Source: Nitrospira sp. (GTDB lineage Bacteria > Nitrospirota > Nitrospiria > Nitrospirales > Nitrospiraceae). Taken from it: a DNA stretch of 64,000 bases. This document shows positions 7,321-16,027 of this stretch, one piece after another. Both the position numbers and the translations under genes were made by a program. Numbering within the stretch: position 1 is the stretch's first letter; each line of letters starts with the position of its first letter. Location: NCBI GenBank assembly GCA_030653545.1, contig JAURZE010000026.1:1-64000 (forward strand). Reading direction: 5' to 3'. Under the pieces are notes generated by a model. That model did no database searches. It saw only the letters and a list, made by a program, of their open reading frames with translations, and was not told the DNA's origin.

Positions 7321-9030
7321 ATGAGTACCGCATCAACAGGGAATGAACCGAAGTTAGACCGCGCCGCGTTGGCCGCCCTCTATGAGGAGACCTTCCGTAA
7401 TCTTGAGGAGGGCACGATCACCGAAGGCCGCGTAGTGGCATTGACGAAGGATAAAGTCGTCGTCGATATCGGCTACAAGTCCGAGGGCATGATTCCGAGC
7501 GATCAATTCTCGCCGGATGATCTCCAGGCGCTCAAGGTGGGCGACAGCCTCCAGGTCTACATCGAAGAATGTGAAGATGACGACGGCAACTTGGTTCTTT
7601 CCAAGGAAAAAGCCGACAAGATGAAGATCTGGGAAGAGCTCGAAAAGCTCTTCAATGAAGAAAAGAGCATTGACGGGAAAATCATTTCGCGGATCAAGGG
7701 CGGCATGATGGTCGATATCGGCGTCAAAGCGTTTTTGCCGGGCTCCCAGATCGACCTGCACCCCGTGCGCGATTTGGACGGTCTCGTCGGCAAGACCTTC
7801 CCGCTGAAGATCATCAAGATCAACCATCGGCGAGGCAATGTGGTGGTGTCTCGTCGTGTCCTTCTTGAGGAGACTCGCGATACGAAGCGGAAGACCACGC
7901 TTGCCAATCTCAAAGAAGGCCAGCTGATTCAGGGTATGGTCAAGAACATCACCGATTACGGGGCGTTTATCGACCTCGGCGGAATCGACGGCTTGCTCCA
8001 TATCACGGATATGTCGTGGGGTCGTGTCGGCCATCCGTCGGAAATGTTCACCGTCGGCGATCGTGTGGAAGTCAACGTGTTGAAATACGATCGGGAGACC
8101 GGCCGTATCTCGCTCGGACTGAAGCAGAAGTCCGCCGATCCCTGGACCAATGTGGCCGGGAAGTATCCGATCGGCACGCGGGTGCGCGGGCGGGTAGTGA
8201 GCTTGACGGATTATGGAGCATTCATCGAGCTCGAGCCGGGCGTTGAAGGATTGGTCCATGTCTCGGAAATGTCCTGGACTCATGAAGTGCGTCATCCTTC
8301 GCGTGTCGTGACCGTGGGCGATCAGGTGGAAGCTGCCGTGTTGAACGTGGATCCCGCCAGCCGGAAGATTTCGCTGGGCATGAAGCAGACCGCGCCCAAT
8401 CCCTGGGACATGATCGAGAGCAAGTATCCGATCGGGACGAAGATCGAAGGGAAAGTGAAGAGCTTGACCGATTTCGGGGCCTTCATTGGACTGGAAGAGG
8501 GCATCGATGGTTTGATTCACATCTCCGATATGTCGTGGACCAAGCACATCAAGCATCCGTCAGAGCTGTTCAAGAAGGCGCAGAAGGTCGACGCGGTCGT
8601 GTTGCGGATCGATAAAGAAAAGGAACGGCTGTCACTCGGGTTCAAGCAGCTCTCACGCGATCCGTGGGATGATGAAATCCCGGCGCGCTACCATGTCGGC
8701 GATTCGGTGACCGGGAAGGTCAGCAAGGTGGCCGACTTTGGAATCTTCATCGAGCTGGAAGGCGGCGTCGAAGGGTTGATTCACATCAGCGAAGCCGGAC
8801 TGGACGGCGCGGCGAAGCTCGAAGAGAAGTTCAAGCTGTTAGATGACGTGGCCGCGAAGATTATCAAGGTCGATCGCGAGGAGCGGAAGATTGCGCTCAG
8901 CTTGCGCGAACATCAATCCGACTCCGATCGCCGACAGGTCGATGAATATCATTCAACGCAGGGCGCGCTCGATCAAAGCCTCGGACGAGCCGCGAAGCAG
9001 AGCCGTAAAAAGTCGCAGGCGGAAGACTAA
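7321..9030 (+). CDS. rpsA: 30S ribosomal protein S1
   Basis: Binds mRNA on the small subunit to assist initiation. The 569 residues contain six S1/OB-fold repeats at about 30-96, 117-185, 200-270, 285-357, 372-444 and 459-530. The last four share the sequence pattern 'G..V.G.V....DFGAFI.L..G..GL.HIS..SW'. Six domains and this length are standard for Gram-negative S1. The likely ribosome site is AGGA 8 bases before ATG 7321. It sits between cmk/plsC and an IHF gene, as in the cmk-rpsA-ihfB order of proteobacteria. Confidence 0.97.
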   Translation: MSTASTGNEPKLDRAALAALYEETFRNLEEGTITEGRVVALTKDKVVVDIGYKSEGMIPSDQFSPDDLQALKVGDSLQVYIEECEDDDGNLVLSKEKADKMKIWEELEKLFNEEKSIDGKIISRIKGGMMVDIGVKAFLPGSQIDLHPVRDLDGLVGKTFPLKIIKINHRRGNVVVSRRVLLEETRDTKRKTTLANLKEGQLIQGMVKNITDYGAFIDLGGIDGLLHITDMSWGRVGHPSEMFTVGDRVEVNVLKYDRETGRISLGLKQKSADPWTNVAGKYPIGTRVRGRVVSLTDYGAFIELEPGVEGLVHVSEMSWTHEVRHPSRVVTVGDQVEAAVLNVDPASRKISLGMKQTAPNPWDMIESKYPIGTKIEGKVKSLTDFGAFIGLEEGIDGLIHISDMSWTKHIKHPSELFKKAQKVDAVVLRIDKEKERLSLGFKQLSRDPWDDEIPARYHVGDSVTGKVSKVADFGIFIELEGGVEGLIHISEAGLDGAAKLEEKFKLLDDVAAKIIKVDREERKIALSLREHQSDSDRRQVDEYHSTQGALDQSLGRAAKQSRKKSQAED

Positions 9031-9069
9031 TGCGAGGCCAACGGTTGTCTGACACAAACATGAGTCATC

Positions 9070-9969
9070 ATGGCTGACGACCAACCAACAGAACGCAGTC
9101 CCAAACGCTCTCTGCTGCGCAAGTTCCTTTGGGTCGTGGGGGGTGGTTTGGGGTTGCTGTTCCTGGTCAATGTATTGTTGCCCGATCTTGATCTCTCGGG
9201 CGAGGATCGCATTGCGCTGATCCGCATCGAGGGCGTCATTCTTGACGCCCAGGAAACGCTCGGCGAGCTGAAGAAATTCAGTGAGAATCCTTCCGTTAAG
9301 GCGATCGTGCTTCGAATCGATAGCCCGGGCGGAGGGGTGGTCCCCTCGCAGGAGATTTACGACGCGGTGCGCCGGGTGCGGACCAAGAGCAACAAAGCCG
9401 TGATTGCGTCGATGGGGAGCGTGGCGGCGTCGGGCGGCTACTATATTGCCGCCGCGACCGACCGTATCGTGGCGAACCCCGGAACCCTGACCGGAAGTAT
9501 CGGGGTAATCATGGAGATGGCCAATGTCGAGGGCCTTCTCCAGAAGATCGGCGTCGAAGGCGTGGTTGTGAAAAGCGGGAAGTACAAAGACGTCGGCTCT
9601 CCGCTGAGAAAGATGAGCGAGGAAGAGCGGGGGTTGTTGCAAACTGTTATGGACGATGTCCATAAGCAGTTCATTGAAGCCGTCGCCGAAGGCCGCTCGC
9701 TCGAGGTGACCGAGGTTCAGGCGTTGGCCGATGGCCGGATTTTTACCGGGCGCCAGGCGAAAGCCGCGAAGCTGGTCGATGAGCTTGGTAACCTGGATGA
9801 TGCGATTCAGTTGGCGGCCGATGTCGTGGGAATCGAAGGTGAGCCGAAGGTCATTGAGCAGCGCCGTCGGTTTTCGATTCGTGAGCTGCTGGAGTCGAAG
9901 CTCTCGTCGGTCTTGCCTAAATTCGATTTCCATTCAGGGGTGAATCTGAAATATCTCATGGCCTATTAA
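9070..9969 (+). CDS. sppA: Signal peptide peptidase SppA (short form)
   Basis: A membrane serine protease that degrades cleaved signal peptides. The 299 residues have one N-terminal membrane segment (about 19-37) and a single ClpP-like catalytic domain, so this is the short form rather than the doubled E. coli enzyme. Nucleophile candidate Ser121 is in GSVAASGGYY, and the catalytic lysine should lie in the KSGKYKDVGSP segment (about 168-178). The stretch DSPGGGV near 84-90 is the usual glycine-rich loop. No clear ribosome site precedes ATG 9070. Located 39 bases after rpsA. Confidence 0.93.
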   Translation: MADDQPTERSPKRSLLRKFLWVVGGGLGLLFLVNVLLPDLDLSGEDRIALIRIEGVILDAQETLGELKKFSENPSVKAIVLRIDSPGGGVVPSQEIYDAVRRVRTKSNKAVIASMGSVAASGGYYIAAATDRIVANPGTLTGSIGVIMEMANVEGLLQKIGVEGVVVKSGKYKDVGSPLRKMSEEERGLLQTVMDDVHKQFIEAVAEGRSLEVTEVQALADGRIFTGRQAKAAKLVDELGNLDDAIQLAADVVGIEGEPKVIEQRRRFSIRELLESKLSSVLPKFDFHSGVNLKYLMAY

Positions 9970-10028
9970 TCGCGCGGCAATGGCGTGCAAGGGCACTTGT
10001 CCATCAACGGTGCGAAGGGAGGGCGGAC

Positions 10029-10307
10029 ATGACGAAAGCGCAGATCATCGAGCAGATGTCGGAGAAAGTCACCACGTTGACTAAGCGGCAGGCCGAAGTC
10101 GTCGTGAATACCATTTTTGATTGTATTCGAGACTCTCTGAAGAACGGGGATAAGACCGAGATCCGCGGGTTCGGAAGTTTTCGGTTGCGTGCGAGGCGGA
10201 TGAAAGAAGGGCGCAATCCGAAGACCGGTGCGACTGTCGCGGTGCCGGCGAAACGCGTCCCGTTTTTTAAGGCCGGCAAAGAACTCAAAGAGTTACTGAA
10301 CCAATAG
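10029..10307 (+). CDS. Integration host factor / HU-family DNA-binding protein
   Basis: A 92-residue nucleoid protein of the HU/IHF fold. The DNA-binding arm signature GFGSFRLRARRMKEGRNPKTG and the closing VPFFKAGKELKELL are clear. The ribosome site GGGAGGG lies just before ATG 10029. Its place after rpsA suggests the IhfB lineage, but HU and IHF cannot be separated safely by eye, so no symbol is given. It probably shares transcription with sppA and the following PCP_red protein. Confidence 0.9.
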   Translation: MTKAQIIEQMSEKVTTLTKRQAEVVVNTIFDCIRDSLKNGDKTEIRGFGSFRLRARRMKEGRNPKTGATVAVPAKRVPFFKAGKELKELLNQ

Positions 10308-10326
10308 CGAGCGAGAAGGAGCTCCC

Positions 10327-11328
10327 ATGTCATCCTCAGATTCTCTTGAGTCTGCCGGCGCCGAGATTCGCTGGACCGATGGTGCGCTGAAGCGCATGGA
10401 ACGTGCTCCGGTCTTCCTTCGCGGCATGGTCCGGCGATTGGCTGAAAAGAAAGCACGGGAACTCGGTTACGAGGAGATCGACGAAGTTAAGCTGGACCAG
10501 TTCAAGGGCCAGATGATGGGGTCGATGGGGGGCGCGACCGGTATGGCGTCGGCGGCGGAGGCCATGGAGAAAGGGCAGTTGCCCTGGACCGCTGCCGCCA
10601 AAGCACGGCTCGATGCCGTTCCCGAGTTCATGCGCGGGATGATCAAGCAGATTGCGGAAGAGATGGCTCGCGAAGGCGGGCATATGGAAGTCAATATCGA
10701 TTTACTCGATCGGGTCGAATCGATGGCCGATGCCCGTGAGCGCGAGTTGCCCCCGTTGACATGGAGCGAGGGCGCGTTGGCGCTCCTGCAACAGAAGATC
10801 AAAGACTCGCCGCCGATCGCGCTGGAATTTGTCAGTGACATGATCCGACACGACACGGAAGAGGTGGCCAGGGAAAAAGGGTTCACGACCATCGATGAGA
10901 CAAATGTCGTGCAATTGTGGGAGGCGCCTCAGCAGAAAGTGGCCTGGTCAGATGAGGCGTGGAAGCGACTCCAGACCTCGCCTGATTTCGTCAGGAGCGG
11001 TATCCGAAAGGCGGCGGAACGGCGTGCGAGGAAGCTGGGCTTGTCTGAGATCGACTCGGACTCCCTGACGACGTTTCGCAATCAGGCGATGATGAAAGCG
11101 GTGAAACGCATTCGATCGTTCGGCTACAACGAGCTGACGTTTGACGCGTTTGATACGGCGCTAACCAAGACGAAGCGGCTTCAGGGGAACGATCAAGCTG
11201 AAAAGCGTTTGCAGGAAATCCGTGGGCATTTCTCCGATCCCAACGCGAAAAAGCCCGAGGGGGGGACGCTTGGGGCCGATCTTATGGGTCGATTCCGCAG
11301 GTATCTCAAGGGCGAAGGGGCGCTCTAA
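10327..11328 (+). CDS. Protein of four tandem PCP_red-like repeats
   Basis: 333 residues built from four related units at about 13-60, 85-135, 143-200 and 204-285. Each has the pattern 'W...A...L...P.F.R..I...AE..AR..G...I': for example IRWTDGALKRMERAPVFLRG, LPWTAAAKARLDAVPEFMRG and VAWSDEAWKRLQTSPDFVRS. This matches the small 'PCP_red' domain known from the C-terminus of light-independent protochlorophyllide reductase subunit B and from stand-alone proteins in non-photosynthetic bacteria. Function is unknown. It starts 19 bases after the IHF/HU gene with AGGAG as ribosome site, and ends the plus-strand run at a symmetrical hairpin. Domain call moderate; no pigment synthesis is implied. Confidence 0.75.
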   Translation: MSSSDSLESAGAEIRWTDGALKRMERAPVFLRGMVRRLAEKKARELGYEEIDEVKLDQFKGQMMGSMGGATGMASAAEAMEKGQLPWTAAAKARLDAVPEFMRGMIKQIAEEMAREGGHMEVNIDLLDRVESMADARERELPPLTWSEGALALLQQKIKDSPPIALEFVSDMIRHDTEEVAREKGFTTIDETNVVQLWEAPQQKVAWSDEAWKRLQTSPDFVRSGIRKAAERRARKLGLSEIDSDSLTTFRNQAMMKAVKRIRSFGYNELTFDAFDTALTKTKRLQGNDQAEKRLQEIRGHFSDPNAKKPEGGTLGADLMGRFRRYLKGEGAL

Positions 11329-11484: not shown

Positions 11485-11805
11485 CTAGATCGCGCCGACC
11501 GCTTGCGGCCAGAATTTGTGACGGATCTGCGGAAGCGGTTCGTTGTCGAAATTCGGGATATCGTATAGGCACCGATCGATCGTAGCCACTTCATCTTCTG
11601 TCAAATCGAGCGTGACCTTCTTCTTCCAGAACTGATCCAGGGTGAAGTAGTCCGCCGATTGCGGCTTCTCCGCCAGTAACGTCTTCATCTTCTGGAAGCC
11701 CTCGGTATCGACCCCACCGATGCGGCCTTTGTTTCGGTCGTGACACCAGCTCAGGACCTCCGCGATCCCGTACATGGTGATGTCCACTTTCACATGTTTG
11801 CTCAT
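11485..11805 (-). CDS. Conserved-looking hypothetical protein (106 aa)
   Basis: A soluble, mixed-charge protein starting MSKHVKVDITMYGIAEVL with no signal peptide, membrane segment or recognised motif. Seen: a single Cys and several aromatic residues (DYFTLDQFWKKKVTLDL). AGGAGGACGC before the ATG is a strong ribosome site, which supports the reading frame. It stands alone, convergent with the PCP_red gene. Function not recognised. Confidence 0.7.
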   Translation of the reverse strand: MSKHVKVDITMYGIAEVLSWCHDRNKGRIGGVDTEGFQKMKTLLAEKPQSADYFTLDQFWKKKVTLDLTEDEVATIDRCLYDIPNFDNEPLPQIRHKFWPQAVGAI

Positions 11806-11991: not shown

Positions 11992-12054
11992 CTTGCGAAG
12001 AGGGAAGTTGTGAAGCTTGTCTCGCCTCGTCCCGCTCATCGAGCGGTTGACGCG

Positions 12055-13212
12055 ATGAAAATCGCCCTGTGCTGGCTTTTGGCTATCGGGATGTGGTCCT
12101 GCACCAAGGCCGATCCATACCAACCCCCCGATCTGTTTTACTACTACGCGAGCTACAAAGTCGGGAAGAACCCCACCACGATTACGACCGGCGATTTCAA
12201 TCACGATACGTTTACGGATCTCATCACTACCAATATATCCAGTAACACCCTCTCGATCCTGCTGGGCAATGGTGATGGAAGTTTTAGAGACCAAACTCAA
12301 ATCAAAGTGTGTGTCGAGCCACGGACTTTGGTTATGGCGGACTTTAACCACGACACCCATGCGGACATCGTGCTGGCCTGCTCGGGAGGCGATGAAATCG
12401 CATTTCTCATGGGGCGAGGAAACGGCAAGTATGAAGAGGGACCGCACTACCCTGTCCATCGAACGCCCGTGGCCCTCGCCACCGAAGATCTGAATGGTGA
12501 CGGCCACCCTGACGTTGTTGTTGCGTTACGAAACGATAAGATCCAAGTCTTTCTTGGAACCGGAACCTCAGAATTTCACCATGGGGCGCAATATACCTAT
12601 GGTGATACGCCTACGTCTGTGGCGCTGTCGGATCTCAATGGCGATGGGAAGATCGACATGGTCGTCACCAACGGCGGACCCATGTCCAATGCTGTCTCGA
12701 TCTGGCTGGGCAACGGAGACGGGACGTTTCGCGACCCTAAAGACTATCGGACCGGCAAACGACCGCTCTCCGCGACGTTTGCCGACTTTAATAACGATCG
12801 CCACCGCGACCTGCTCGTGATCAATGGAGAGCGAGATAGCTTCACGACATACCTCGGCAATGGCACTGGCACATTTTTGCCGGGCAAGGATTCAGGTGCC
12901 GATGCCGGTCCTATCGCAGGTGTTACTCGCGATTTCGATGGCGACCGGATCCTCGATGTCGCCATTGCAAATTTGCAATCCAACGATCTATCGATCCTCT
13001 TCGGTAACGGTGATGGAACCTTTCACTATCCACCCAGGAACTATCCTACAAAGGCGGGCCCGTTTGCACTGGCGACATTCTGGGTAACCACCAATGCCGT
13101 CGAAGAGCCGGGATTGGTAACGGCCGACAATGGAAATGGGACGGTTTCAATTTTTCTTCATCGTGGACTGAAAGCGGTAAAGCCAGCGCCAATTGCTTCA
13201 AATGAGCATTAA
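12055..13212 (+). CDS. FG-GAP/VCBS repeat lipoprotein, probable beta-propeller
   Basis: From ATG 12055 the protein starts MKIALCWLLAIGMWSC, a signal peptide ending in a lipobox-like Cys16; a GTG at 12010 would add 15 residues and cannot be excluded. The rest carries about seven repeats with calcium-binding DxNxDGxxD-type loops (DLNGDGHPDV, DLNGDGKIDM, DFNHDTFTDL, DFDGDRILDV), alternating with LGNGDGTF-type turns. This is the integrin-alpha/FG-GAP pattern, usually a seven-bladed extracytoplasmic propeller. A surface binding role is inferred; the ligand is unknown. It has its own promoter and leader hairpin. Confidence 0.85.
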   Translation: MKIALCWLLAIGMWSCTKADPYQPPDLFYYYASYKVGKNPTTITTGDFNHDTFTDLITTNISSNTLSILLGNGDGSFRDQTQIKVCVEPRTLVMADFNHDTHADIVLACSGGDEIAFLMGRGNGKYEEGPHYPVHRTPVALATEDLNGDGHPDVVVALRNDKIQVFLGTGTSEFHHGAQYTYGDTPTSVALSDLNGDGKIDMVVTNGGPMSNAVSIWLGNGDGTFRDPKDYRTGKRPLSATFADFNNDRHRDLLVINGERDSFTTYLGNGTGTFLPGKDSGADAGPIAGVTRDFDGDRILDVAIANLQSNDLSILFGNGDGTFHYPPRNYPTKAGPFALATFWVTTNAVEEPGLVTADNGNGTVSIFLHRGLKAVKPAPIASNEH

Positions 13213-13777: not shown

Positions 13778-14668
13778 TTGGTTAAGTCATTTGTCCTCAC
13801 GTCAACGGTTCTGGCTGCGGTATTGGGGACCTTGGTCTTGGGAATTCCTCTCGACGCCCAGGCCGAGTATAGCCATAAACATAAGCGCCAGGTCAGAGCA
13901 GTGAGTACAACGGGCGACCGCCTTCCTTGGCGAGTGGCTCCCGCTCATAGCATTTTCATGAAAGAGCTTCGATCCGGCCGTGTGCTCTACCAGCATGAAT
14001 CTCTCAAGCGACTCTCGCCTGCAAGCCTCACGAAAATCATGTCCGCGCTGGTGATTTTGGAGAAGGGGAAGCTCGATGATCAGGCGACCATCAGCCGCAA
14101 TGCCGCGCGGGCGCCCAAAACGCATCTTCGGCTCCGTCCAGGTGAAGTGTTCAAACTCGAGGACTTGCTCAAAGCGATGCTGATCGTGTCGGCCAATGAC
14201 GCCTGTCTGGCCGCCGTGGAACATGTCGGCGGCGATGAAGAGCAGTTTGTCATGCTCATGAACGCAAAAGCTGCCGCACTCGGGTTGACCGATACCCACT
14301 TCAGCAACGGCTGTGGATTCGATGGTCCTGAGCACTATTCAACGGCCGAGGATCTGGCGAAGCTCAGTGAGGTCGCGCTACAGAATCCGATCTTCCGTGC
14401 GCTCGTGCGCGAGGAACGTGAGATTATCACTCCGATCAGTGGCCACCGTGCGTATGTCTTGCACAGCACTAATCGGCTATTGGGACGCATCCCAGGGGTG
14501 GAGGGTGTCAAAACCGGGTTCACCTCAAAAGCGGGCCGATGCCTCATTGCGAAAGTTTCACAGAACGGCAGCGACTTGTTGGTCGTGATCTTAAACTCCA
14601 ATCGTCGCTGGAACACCGCCGTGAGTCTTATTGATTTCGGGCTGAAATCTACTGCAACGATGCAGTAA
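13778..14668 (+). CDS. D-alanyl-D-alanine carboxypeptidase, peptidase S11 (PBP5/DacF type)
   Basis: A periplasmic penicillin-binding protein that trims the terminal D-Ala from peptidoglycan stem peptides. All three active-site motifs are present: SLTK (SPASLTKIMSA), SAN (VSANDACLAA) and KTG (GVKTGFTSKAG). A signal peptide spans about residues 1-29, ending DAQAEY. The start is TTG 13778, chosen because TAAGGAG at 13764-13770 lies 7 bases before it and no ATG fits. At 296 residues it lacks the long C-terminal domain and membrane anchor of classic PBP5, like shorter DacF or PBP7 forms. A weak hairpin with T-rich tail follows. Confidence 0.93.
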   Translation: MVKSFVLTSTVLAAVLGTLVLGIPLDAQAEYSHKHKRQVRAVSTTGDRLPWRVAPAHSIFMKELRSGRVLYQHESLKRLSPASLTKIMSALVILEKGKLDDQATISRNAARAPKTHLRLRPGEVFKLEDLLKAMLIVSANDACLAAVEHVGGDEEQFVMLMNAKAAALGLTDTHFSNGCGFDGPEHYSTAEDLAKLSEVALQNPIFRALVREEREIITPISGHRAYVLHSTNRLLGRIPGVEGVKTGFTSKAGRCLIAKVSQNGSDLLVVILNSNRRWNTAVSLIDFGLKSTATMQ

Positions 14669-14685
14669 GTCCATCTTCATCTCTT

Positions 14686-14705
14686 CCCTGTCTGCAGGGT
14701 TTAAT
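14686..14705 (+). terminator. Weak intrinsic terminator after the carboxypeptidase gene
   Basis: CCCTG (14686-14690), TCTG loop and CAGGG (14695-14699) form a 5-bp stem followed by TTTAAT. It is short and only moderately convincing. Confidence 0.35.
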
Positions 14706-15010
14706 CAGCGCACAACCCTTCGAATACTGCCAGCCCCGTTTTTCATACGGATGGTTTTTCGGCAGACGTGATGGGTGTCGCGAAGCCCCCTTATCTACTG
14801 GGCATCCAGGTATCATGGGATTCTCCATAAATCAGTTGGTGTCAGCGACCTTGGATTTGGGTTTGCTTGGTATTGTCCCGTTAGGATCTCAGGGTCCTAT
14901 TGAGATTCGTGCAGCAGCAGGGCTGGGAGCCCTGCTGCTGCAACGTATAAGAGGAGAAAATAATCGATTCGTGATAAACGCGGGAGAGGTATTAGTTACA
15001 CAACAGAGAG
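14706..15010. other. Gene-poor gap with a 15-bp hairpin
   Basis: No supported gene. The striking element is an inverted repeat: GCAGCAGCAGGGCT at 14911-14924, a GGG loop and AGCCCTGCTGCTGC at 14928-14941, 14 perfect pairs extended by one T-A pair. It lies between convergent genes. No T-run follows on either strand. A 69-codon frame at 14815-15024 crosses it and is judged spurious. Confidence 0.55.
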
Positions 15011-15544
15011 CTAGTGGGGGGTAGAAAATTCGATATTGACGTCCTTCCCGAGGTAATTTACCTGAAAGCCTTGTTTGTCATAGGCCATGACGGCGCCCAT
15101 CACGTTTTCATCCCCGTATTCTTCTTTTCCCAACAATTTCCGGATGTCCTCGGGGCTTTCGCTGTTCAACACATTTCTAAAGATGCCGCGAGCCTTGTGG
15201 GTGAAGCGGTTATTGATGAAAATCAGGTCGACTTTCCCATCCTGGACACGGACGCCAGCCATTGGGCCGGTGGGCTTTCGTTGATCGATCAGGAAAATAA
15301 AGGCTGCTTCCTGTTCGGCTTTGATCCCGGCAATCTTTTCATTGACCAAAACATCCAGTGCCTTCGCTTCAGTGTCGCCTAACTTCACTCCGAACAGCGA
15401 CACGGTTGCGCTGGAAATCTCCTTCGATTCCATCACATCATTCTTGCTCAGCTCGTAGGGTTCAGCATGCAACGATGAGGTCGCGCTGGTGAGGATCGCC
15501 ACGAGTATTCCGGCCAGCACAGGCAATCCGTATTTCTTCCTCAT
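15011..15544 (-). CDS. Secreted hypothetical protein (177 aa)
   Basis: A signal peptide (about 1-27, ending SSLHA before EPYELS) directs it to the periplasm. The mature part is soluble with no cysteines or recognised motif; a segment VSLFGVKLGDTEAKALDVL resembles the openings of small periplasmic proteins that respond to envelope state, but this is weak. GGGGAG lies just before the ATG. It is monocistronic by appearance and convergent with the carboxypeptidase gene. Confidence 0.75.
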   Translation of the reverse strand: MRKKYGLPVLAGILVAILTSATSSLHAEPYELSKNDVMESKEISSATVSLFGVKLGDTEAKALDVLVNEKIAGIKAEQEAAFIFLIDQRKPTGPMAGVRVQDGKVDLIFINNRFTHKARGIFRNVLNSESPEDIRKLLGKEEYGDENVMGAVMAYDKQGFQVNYLGKDVNIEFSTPH

Positions 15545-15727
15545 CGTCTCCCCTTTCGCAGATTAAAGATGTCAGTTGATCGTGCTGATTATTCAGATCA
15601 TTTCAAGGATAGGCAGGTTTCATTGGGCTTGAAACATTCTATCCAAGGGAAGATGAACTTGCAAGAAAGGTCCAACTGGGAGTGAGAAGAACCGTGAGCA
15701 GGGGAAATCGAAAAGACGAGACATGCC

Positions 15728-16027
15728 TTAGGCGGTTATCGTGGTGGCCAGCAGCAGTTCACCTAGACGATGCAGGCGTACAAAATACGGTTGACAATCC
15801 GATTCCAGCTCCGACGTCACCTCTTCTAGGTCCGCCAAGCAGTCTTTCAGAATCTCGACTCGCTGATGGTCTAACCCTTCCGGACTGTCCAAGAAAAACA
15901 CGACGCAGCCGCTAATGACGGTATCGAGGGTCATCAGCTGTCCCTGATTCGGGCTGGCAAAGGTCGGCCAGCCTTCGCTGCAATGTGTTTCCCATGCCGA
16001 TATGATCGTGGCTCGATTCACGGTCAT
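15728..16027 (-). CDS. Hypothetical protein (99 aa)
   Basis: A small acidic soluble protein beginning MTVNRATIISAWETHCSEGW and rich in helical Leu/Glu patterns in its second half (EILKDCLADLEEVTSELESD). No domain is recognised. GGAGGGG lies about 11 bases before the ATG. It follows the membrane protein gene at 16046 on the same strand by 18 bases, so the two may be co-transcribed. Confidence 0.5.
   Translation of the reverse strand: MTVNRATIISAWETHCSEGWPTFASPNQGQLMTLDTVISGCVVFFLDSPEGLDHQRVEILKDCLADLEEVTSELESDCQPYFVRLHRLGELLLATTITA

Follow-up and report, generated by a model that had tools for sequence, protein, structure and literature searches.

Four tandem PCP_red domains in Nitrospira: a candidate docking scaffold genetically linked to a heme-synthase-like radical SAM protein

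The PCP_red domain (Pfam PF08369) is known almost only as an unexplained chlorophyll-enzyme tail, and in the literature passages on tetrapyrrole enzymes that were available to us no role was found for this tail in BchB. Single PCP_red proteins, represented by PDB entry 2l09, and fusions of the domain to universal stress (Usp) domains, described in a passage of PMC12159084, are already on record. A second set of enzymes that bears on the present locus comprises the radical SAM heme synthases. AhbD converts coproheme to heme, according to a passage of PMC7242693, and NirJ2 appears in one review table as another name for AhbD, the oxygen-independent coproheme decarboxylase (PMC10991733). Word searches of the open-access literature found no paper on PCP_red arrays, on a fusion of a radical SAM protein to PCP_red, or on PCP_red in Nitrospira. 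Here we describe a gene for four PCP_red domains in a 64,000-nucleotide stretch of Nitrospira sp. DNA (the window; contig 26 of its genome), together with the genes to which it and its relatives are joined in other genomes.

The four-repeat gene and its predicted fold

The gene encodes a 333-residue protein (10327..11328, + strand) and was recognized as an open reading frame, by profile match and by searches of the genome and of relatives. Its ATG start codon lies 19 bp after the stop codon of the upstream HU/IHF-like gene and is preceded by a ribosome-binding site, AAGGAG (10316..10321, +). Against PF08369, which has a curated cut-off of 32.5 bits, the protein scored 150.3 bits (E 1.4e-44) over four stretches in hmmscan, placing the protein as a whole in the PCP_red family. 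When scored singly, repeat 1 (residues 16-60; 10372..10506, +; 48.1 bits), repeat 2 (residues 87-131; 10585..10719, +; 54.1 bits) and repeat 4 (residues 207-251; 10945..11079, +; 47.1 bits) each exceeded the cut-off. Repeat 3 (residues 146-196; 10762..10914, +) is divergent, has an insertion in the loop between helices 1 and 2, and alone remained below the cut-off, at 20.3 bits and E 0.0025 in the search of its own genome. An earlier note on this DNA, made from the letters alone, had proposed that the repeats are PCP_red domains; this identity is borne out by the profile scores, with significant matches for repeats 1, 2 and 4 individually, and by the match of the predicted fold to 2kru. The same note had counted the motif 'W...A...L...P.F.R' four times. 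The number four holds for the PCP_red stretches but not for the literal motif, which by eye is matched by repeats 2 and 4 alone: M replaces L in repeat 1, and repeat 3 has the insertion before helix 2 and lacks P.F.R.

An AlphaFold2 model built from 36 sequences (mean pLDDT 68, pTM 0.49) predicted three helices for repeats 1, 2 and 4, the first short and the second 18 residues long, with a similar pattern in repeat 3, and the predicted fold agrees with the three-helix fold of solved PCP_red domains. The top PDB match in Foldseek was such a domain, 2kru (probability 1.00, TM-score by target 0.77, rmsd 1.5 A, E 0.05), and 2l09 also matched with probability 1.00 and a TM-score by target of 0.69. 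In VIA-align, repeat 1 matched 2kru with Z 8.6 over 58 residues and repeat 4 matched 2l09 with Z 7.3 over 62 residues; the AAA+ lid domains of RuvBL and RuvB followed near behind, at Z 6-7.3. Neither the PDB nor a library of viral structures gave a match under E 0.001 to the array model, so that the structural match to 2kru rests on the probability, rmsd and Z values. The matches to AAA+ lid domains, and others to histones, may reflect a common helix arrangement.

The array is followed by a conserved helical C-terminal region (11080..11325, +) with many invariant columns and low model confidence. It perhaps consists of a headless fifth half-repeat and then a tail; the half-repeat may span residues ~252-280, as judged by eye, and was not scored as PCP_red. 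Residues 200-333 modelled alone reached a pLDDT of 57, and this model was left unused.

The gene is under strong purifying selection, with dN/dS values of 0.026-0.041 against its three nearest relatives. The fetched loci gave 118 best matches, 110 of them 329-345 residues long and the other eight of 199, 309, 401, 551, 562, 706, 716 and 730 residues. The uniform length and the low dN/dS indicate that the repeat array is not a product of chance. Among 14 relatives with identities down to 41%, the tryptophans W16, W146 and W207 of repeats 1, 3 and 4 were invariant and W87 of repeat 2 was nearly so. The most conserved parts were repeat 4 and the region after it, and repeat 3 retained W146, P162, F168, D176, E178 and A181 without exception.

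The protein contains no cysteine, and its relatives contained none in 102 of 111 sequences and one in the other 9, so it does not show the conserved cysteines of an iron-sulfur or thiol redox protein. The redox adaptor suggested in the earlier note is therefore unlikely in the form of a thiol or Cys-ligated metal protein, and we rejected the reading of the array as a redox protein. As to the nucleic-acid adaptor, the other half of that suggestion, the near-neutral pI of 6.4 (net charge ~-1 at pH 7) is compatible with binding and lends no support to a general binding of nucleic acid.

PCP_red partners in the genome and in other lineages

The genome of the window (3.94 Mb, 99.9% complete) holds eleven PCP_red matches over the cut-off, in addition to the divergent repeat 3, in five proteins. 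Besides the array, these are a radical SAM/SPASM protein with a PCP_red tail (radical SAM-PCP); an adjoining protein with two Usp domains, three PCP_red domains and a rubredoxin-like knuckle (Usp2-PCP); and two Cys-rich proteins with two PCP_red domains each (2xPCP), one of which adjoins a gene for an Mrp/ApbC-type iron-sulfur ATPase. Directly upstream of the Usp2-PCP gene lies a gene for another radical SAM protein, which has weak B12-binding similarity (locus L039, 11710-13353, - strand). No match over the cut-off was found in this genome for the nitrogenase-like BchB/BchN domain (Oxidored_nitro; one stray match of 13.6 bits) or for BchL (best 42 bits, cut-off 345), and hmmscan found no nitrogenase-like catalytic domain in the 333-residue protein. 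The array itself scored 80 and 88 bits against two chlorophyll-enzyme (BchB-type) models with cut-offs of 490 and 509, matching the tail only. The genome search agrees with the earlier observation, made in the neighborhood alone, that a chlorophyll-enzyme partner is missing.

PCP_red exceeded the cut-off in 163 of 295 genomes of the phylum. With a limit of E 1e-10, 76 of 198 genomes gave a match to the array, and within the class Nitrospiria 64 of the 65 sampled genomes did so. The cultured species N. moscoviensis carries the gene as well (locus L132). All but two of the 76 genomes (the exceptions being G018 and G185) also gave a match of E 1e-60 or lower with the radical SAM-PCP query, although in 6 of the 74 (G030, G137, G157, G173, G181 and G183) the E-value cannot separate radical SAM-PCP from AhbD, and the loci confirmed the assignment in 4 of the 6. 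A search of genome contigs with the array returned 125 relatives, of which 80 were kept; their titles read Nitrospira, Nitrospiraceae, Nitrospirae or Nitrospirota, except for two Nitrosospira sp.

We fetched 18 loci around array matches outside the order and scored all of them with one query set. The array forms the C-terminal half of a radical SAM protein in G008, G049 and G054, whereas in G002, G012 and G021 repeat 4 and the C-terminal part are fused to a Usp protein with a radical SAM gene beside it. Two types of operon recur: one consists of Usp2-PCP, radical SAM-PCP and the four-domain array (G137, G157, G173 and G181), and the other of Mrp, Cys-rich 2xPCP, an iron-containing oxygenase-like protein and the array (G117, G129, G155 and G270). 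Both occur within a single 9-kb stretch of G129. In total, the array or a remnant of it was joined to, next to or in a cluster with another PCP_red gene in 14 of the 18 loci, and six of these are fusions. Foremost among the partners is an AhbD/NirJ2-like radical SAM/SPASM protein that has its own PCP_red tail and is paired with a tandem Usp protein, and the genetic link between this partner and the array is well supported. In all four loci with the second operon (G117, G129, G155 and G270), a DUF420 gene adjoins the PCP_red genes, and one also lies near the Cys-rich 2xPCP gene on contig 15 of the window's own genome. The iron-containing protein, which is Haem_oxygenas_2/CADD-like, adjoins the Cys-rich 2xPCP gene in L167 (5731-6501) and L169 (8566-9252); it has close relatives in genomes of the class outside the order, and inside the order the best E was ~1e-16, in three genomes.

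Fusions in both directions and repeated operons are most simply explained if these proteins come together through their PCP_red modules in a shared complex, which we consider probable, with the array, in which no other domain is recognizable and redox residues are absent, as its scaffold. Of the functions put forward in the earlier note, scaffolding agrees best with the data, given that other PCP_red proteins are fused to the array or encoded with it; the physical contact itself is what we infer from these arrangements. Two findings count against the scaffold: the array had no other PCP_red gene nearby in 4 of the 18 loci (G006, G016, G007 and G183), and within the order it lies far from the radical SAM-PCP gene, at a distance of 84 kb in the present genome.

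The radical SAM partner and the role of the array

The best models for the radical SAM core of the partner were NirJ2 (324 bits) and the heme b synthase AhbD (316 bits). Both scores are under the equivalog cut-off of 500, which counts against assigning the partner as a heme synthase. Other matches of the core were to radical SAM/SPASM families, among them TIGR04053 (269 bits), GeoRSP and mycofactocin, which include peptide maturases, and its best PDB sequence matches were PqqE and other SPASM or radical SAM enzymes. Genes for tetrapyrrole synthesis adjoin the radical SAM-PCP gene in some lineages outside the class: HemY in all three f19 loci (290.7 bits in the one scored, cut-off 97.85), HemL in G150 and CobS/CobQ in G083. 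However, such neighbors were found in only 5 of 17 radical SAM-PCP loci outside the class, in three lineages, which counts against a tetrapyrrole function. A family of ~240 residues follows radical SAM-PCP in G062, G083, G150, G263 and G265; members are encoded at 7888-8649 of L173, 7560-8291 of L174 and 5234-5968 of L170, and the L173 member has no Pfam or NCBIfam match.

The window's own genome encodes HemY (332 bits) and a ChdC-like protein that scored 130.6 bits against an equivalog cut-off of 235 and whose nearest solved relatives are coproheme decarboxylases; neither HemN nor HemF was found over the cut-off in this genome. HemF is present in G117, G129 and G155, and a second, AhbD-like gene was found in eight genomes (G062, G083, G098, G111, G150, G156, G174 and G176). 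Because other heme routes are so widespread, we rejected radical SAM-PCP as the sole last step of heme synthesis.

Our preferred hypothesis, to which we assign a probability of roughly 0.4, is that the array serves as a Cys-free docking scaffold in a multi-protein PCP_red system for the maturation of a tetrapyrrole (heme). A tetrapyrrole substrate is suggested by the AhbD-like core of the partner, by BchB, the other enzyme with PCP_red, and by the few gene neighbors described above. PCP_red domains would pair with each other, or would hold a tetrapyrrole or the enzyme that acts on it. By this means the array could gather the radical enzyme, its suppliers of electrons and iron-sulfur clusters, and a Usp switch, and it might aid the oxygen-independent modification of a heme-type cofactor or its hand-over to respiratory complexes.

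The most probable alternative is that the partner modifies a peptide or protein, as other radical SAM/SPASM enzymes do, or acts in another cofactor pathway, the array being a substrate-recognition or docking scaffold and no tetrapyrrole being involved. Tandem docking domains are common in such systems, the core resembles their enzymes and has its best PDB matches among them, and other heme routes coexist with radical SAM-PCP. On the other hand, the two best models of the core are of heme-synthase type, HemY, HemL and Cob genes are among the neighbors, and the enzyme in which PCP_red was known before, BchB, acts on a tetrapyrrole. We regard this alternative as unlikely.

In 22 of 26 loci a Usp2 gene adjoins that for radical SAM-PCP, and the system might instead act as a relay of low-oxygen or energy stress, in which Usp binds a nucleotide, PCP_red passes this state on to respiratory enzymes, and the array takes part without cofactor chemistry. 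In N. marina, as reported in a passage of PMC8115632, four UspA proteins, which may or may not carry PCP_red, increased at low O2 alongside co-regulated electron-transport operons. However, fusions of the array to the radical SAM enzyme itself also occur, which points to chemistry and makes a pure stress relay improbable.

Under the preferred hypothesis, in which the array supports heme maturation, a respiratory enzyme would receive the cofactor. In several radical SAM-PCP loci, the product of a neighboring gene partly resembles cytochrome bd subunit I (50-65 bits; Cyt_bd_oxida_I cut-off, 26.2 bits). On contig 15 of the window's own genome, two bd-like oxidase genes lie 1.2 kb and ~7 kb from the Cys-rich 2xPCP gene; these are tandem oxidase genes, at 8831-10711 and 14217-16001 of locus L041, beside the Cys-rich 2xPCP and DUF420 genes. 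Passages of two reports propose a bd-like protein of this kind as the terminal oxidase of Nitrospira (PMC6606698; PMC12342949), to which the contig 15 pair would correspond. A bd-like oxidase gene was found in 19 of 20 genomes searched and was not found in G008. It lay less than 10 kb from a PCP_red gene in eight of the 20 (G000, G007, G049, G111, G129, G174, G176 and G263) and at 12 kb in G156; in the remaining genomes it was distant, on another contig or, in G008, not found. This test was post hoc, with six of the eight cases known beforehand and G049 and G129 new, the 20 genomes are not independent, and 12 of them showed no link. A rough estimate gave 0.8 of 20 genomes expected by chance and P ~1e-7 for at least eight; it was likewise post hoc, used hand-entered counts of PCP_red loci, and is a guide only. 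The position of the oxidase genes suggests, as a further step of inference, that this oxidase may be a client, and the Nitrospira-type cytochrome bd-like oxidase would then be the foremost receiver. A passage of PMC12342949 presents the OR-N type CydAA' oxidase of the Nitrospirales as one of unknown oxygen affinity, and the cofactor supply of this oxidase is therefore of interest. The full form of the hypothesis, in which bd-like (OR-N type) oxidases and nitrite-oxidation complexes receive a special heme, is doubtful at present.

Within the order, the array belongs to a conserved run of cmk, plsC, rpsA, sppA, IHF, the array and an FG-GAP gene. In the window, the upstream neighbor is a gene for an HU/IHF-like DNA-binding protein (10029..10307, +; PF00216, 106 bits). 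Among eligible loci, IHF was found on the same strand in 110 of 120, SppA in 107 of 118, RpsA in 72 of 79 and the FG-GAP gene downstream in 74 of 82; these counts combine two overlapping locus sets, so that a species may count twice, and include loci outside the order. One of the 110 is L167 of G117, where an HU-like gene lies 2.7 kb upstream of the array. In the window, the FG-GAP repeat protein is encoded at 12010-13212 (+; PF13517, 175 bits), and its gene follows the array in G129 as well, where IHF is absent. Between the array and the FG-GAP gene lies a 106-residue open reading frame on the opposite strand (11485-11805, -) that has no Pfam or NCBIfam match and has a homologue in the same orientation in 103 of 115 eligible loci. 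In G108 and G009, a Cys-rich 2xPCP gene is located ~14-15 kb upstream of the array. These distances would fit if contig 29 of the window's own genome directly precedes contig 26, an order suggested by the distances only.

An IHF orthologue adjoined the array in none of the 18 loci examined outside the order, and the rpsA-sppA-IHF setting is particular to the order. The link to translation or the nucleoid drawn in the earlier note is thus not supported. That the array is a nucleoid or translation adaptor with a histone-like helical fold, going with IHF and rpsA, is very improbable: the frequent same-strand IHF, the HU-like gene of G117 and a weak fold resemblance to H2A-H2B and AAA+ lid domains speak for it, but IHF adjoins the array in none of the 18 outside loci, 14 of these have radical SAM, Usp or 2xPCP neighbors, the pI is near neutral, and the histone matches have Foldseek probabilities of 0.1-0.3 with an rmsd of ~18 A.

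Comparison with known systems

With about a dozen PCP_red copies per genome, these non-phototrophic nitrifiers and their relatives offer a direct way to learn the role of the domain. The fusions and operons that connect these copies with a radical enzyme resembling heme synthases point to an unrecognized maturation system for the respiratory chain in the main nitrite oxidizers. If the full form of the hypothesis is true, Nitrospirota would possess a PCP_red cofactor factory outside photosynthesis, in which a radical SAM enzyme, a stress sensor, iron-sulfur carriers and a scaffold are joined by one small domain.

The AhbD/NirJ2 radical SAM heme synthases provide the best family models for the core of the partner. 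Unlike them, the partner scores below both cut-offs and has a PCP_red tail, and eight genomes contain a separate AhbD-like gene. The USP-LI-POR_suB-like_C proteins of Methanomicrobiaceae (PMC12159084) join a Usp domain to a PCP_red-type domain, as Usp2-PCP does here; they come from automatic annotation of archaea, and in the passage available neither a radical SAM gene nor a four-domain array is tied to them. Asr4154 of Nostoc (2l09), a stand-alone PCP_red protein, has the same domain as the array but consists of one short domain, whereas the window protein is a tandem array. The C-terminal PCP_red of BchB/ChlB in the light-independent protochlorophyllide reductase is matched by the array in profile and in predicted three-helix fold; alignment with the ChlB tail of 2xdq over 45 residues gave 40-42% identity for repeats 1 and 2. 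The array differs from BchB/ChlB in having four copies and no nitrogenase-like catalytic domain, and its genome lacks BchN and BchL. If the full form of the hypothesis holds, PCP_red would be a general docking domain of tetrapyrrole enzymes, and the BchB tail would be one use of it.
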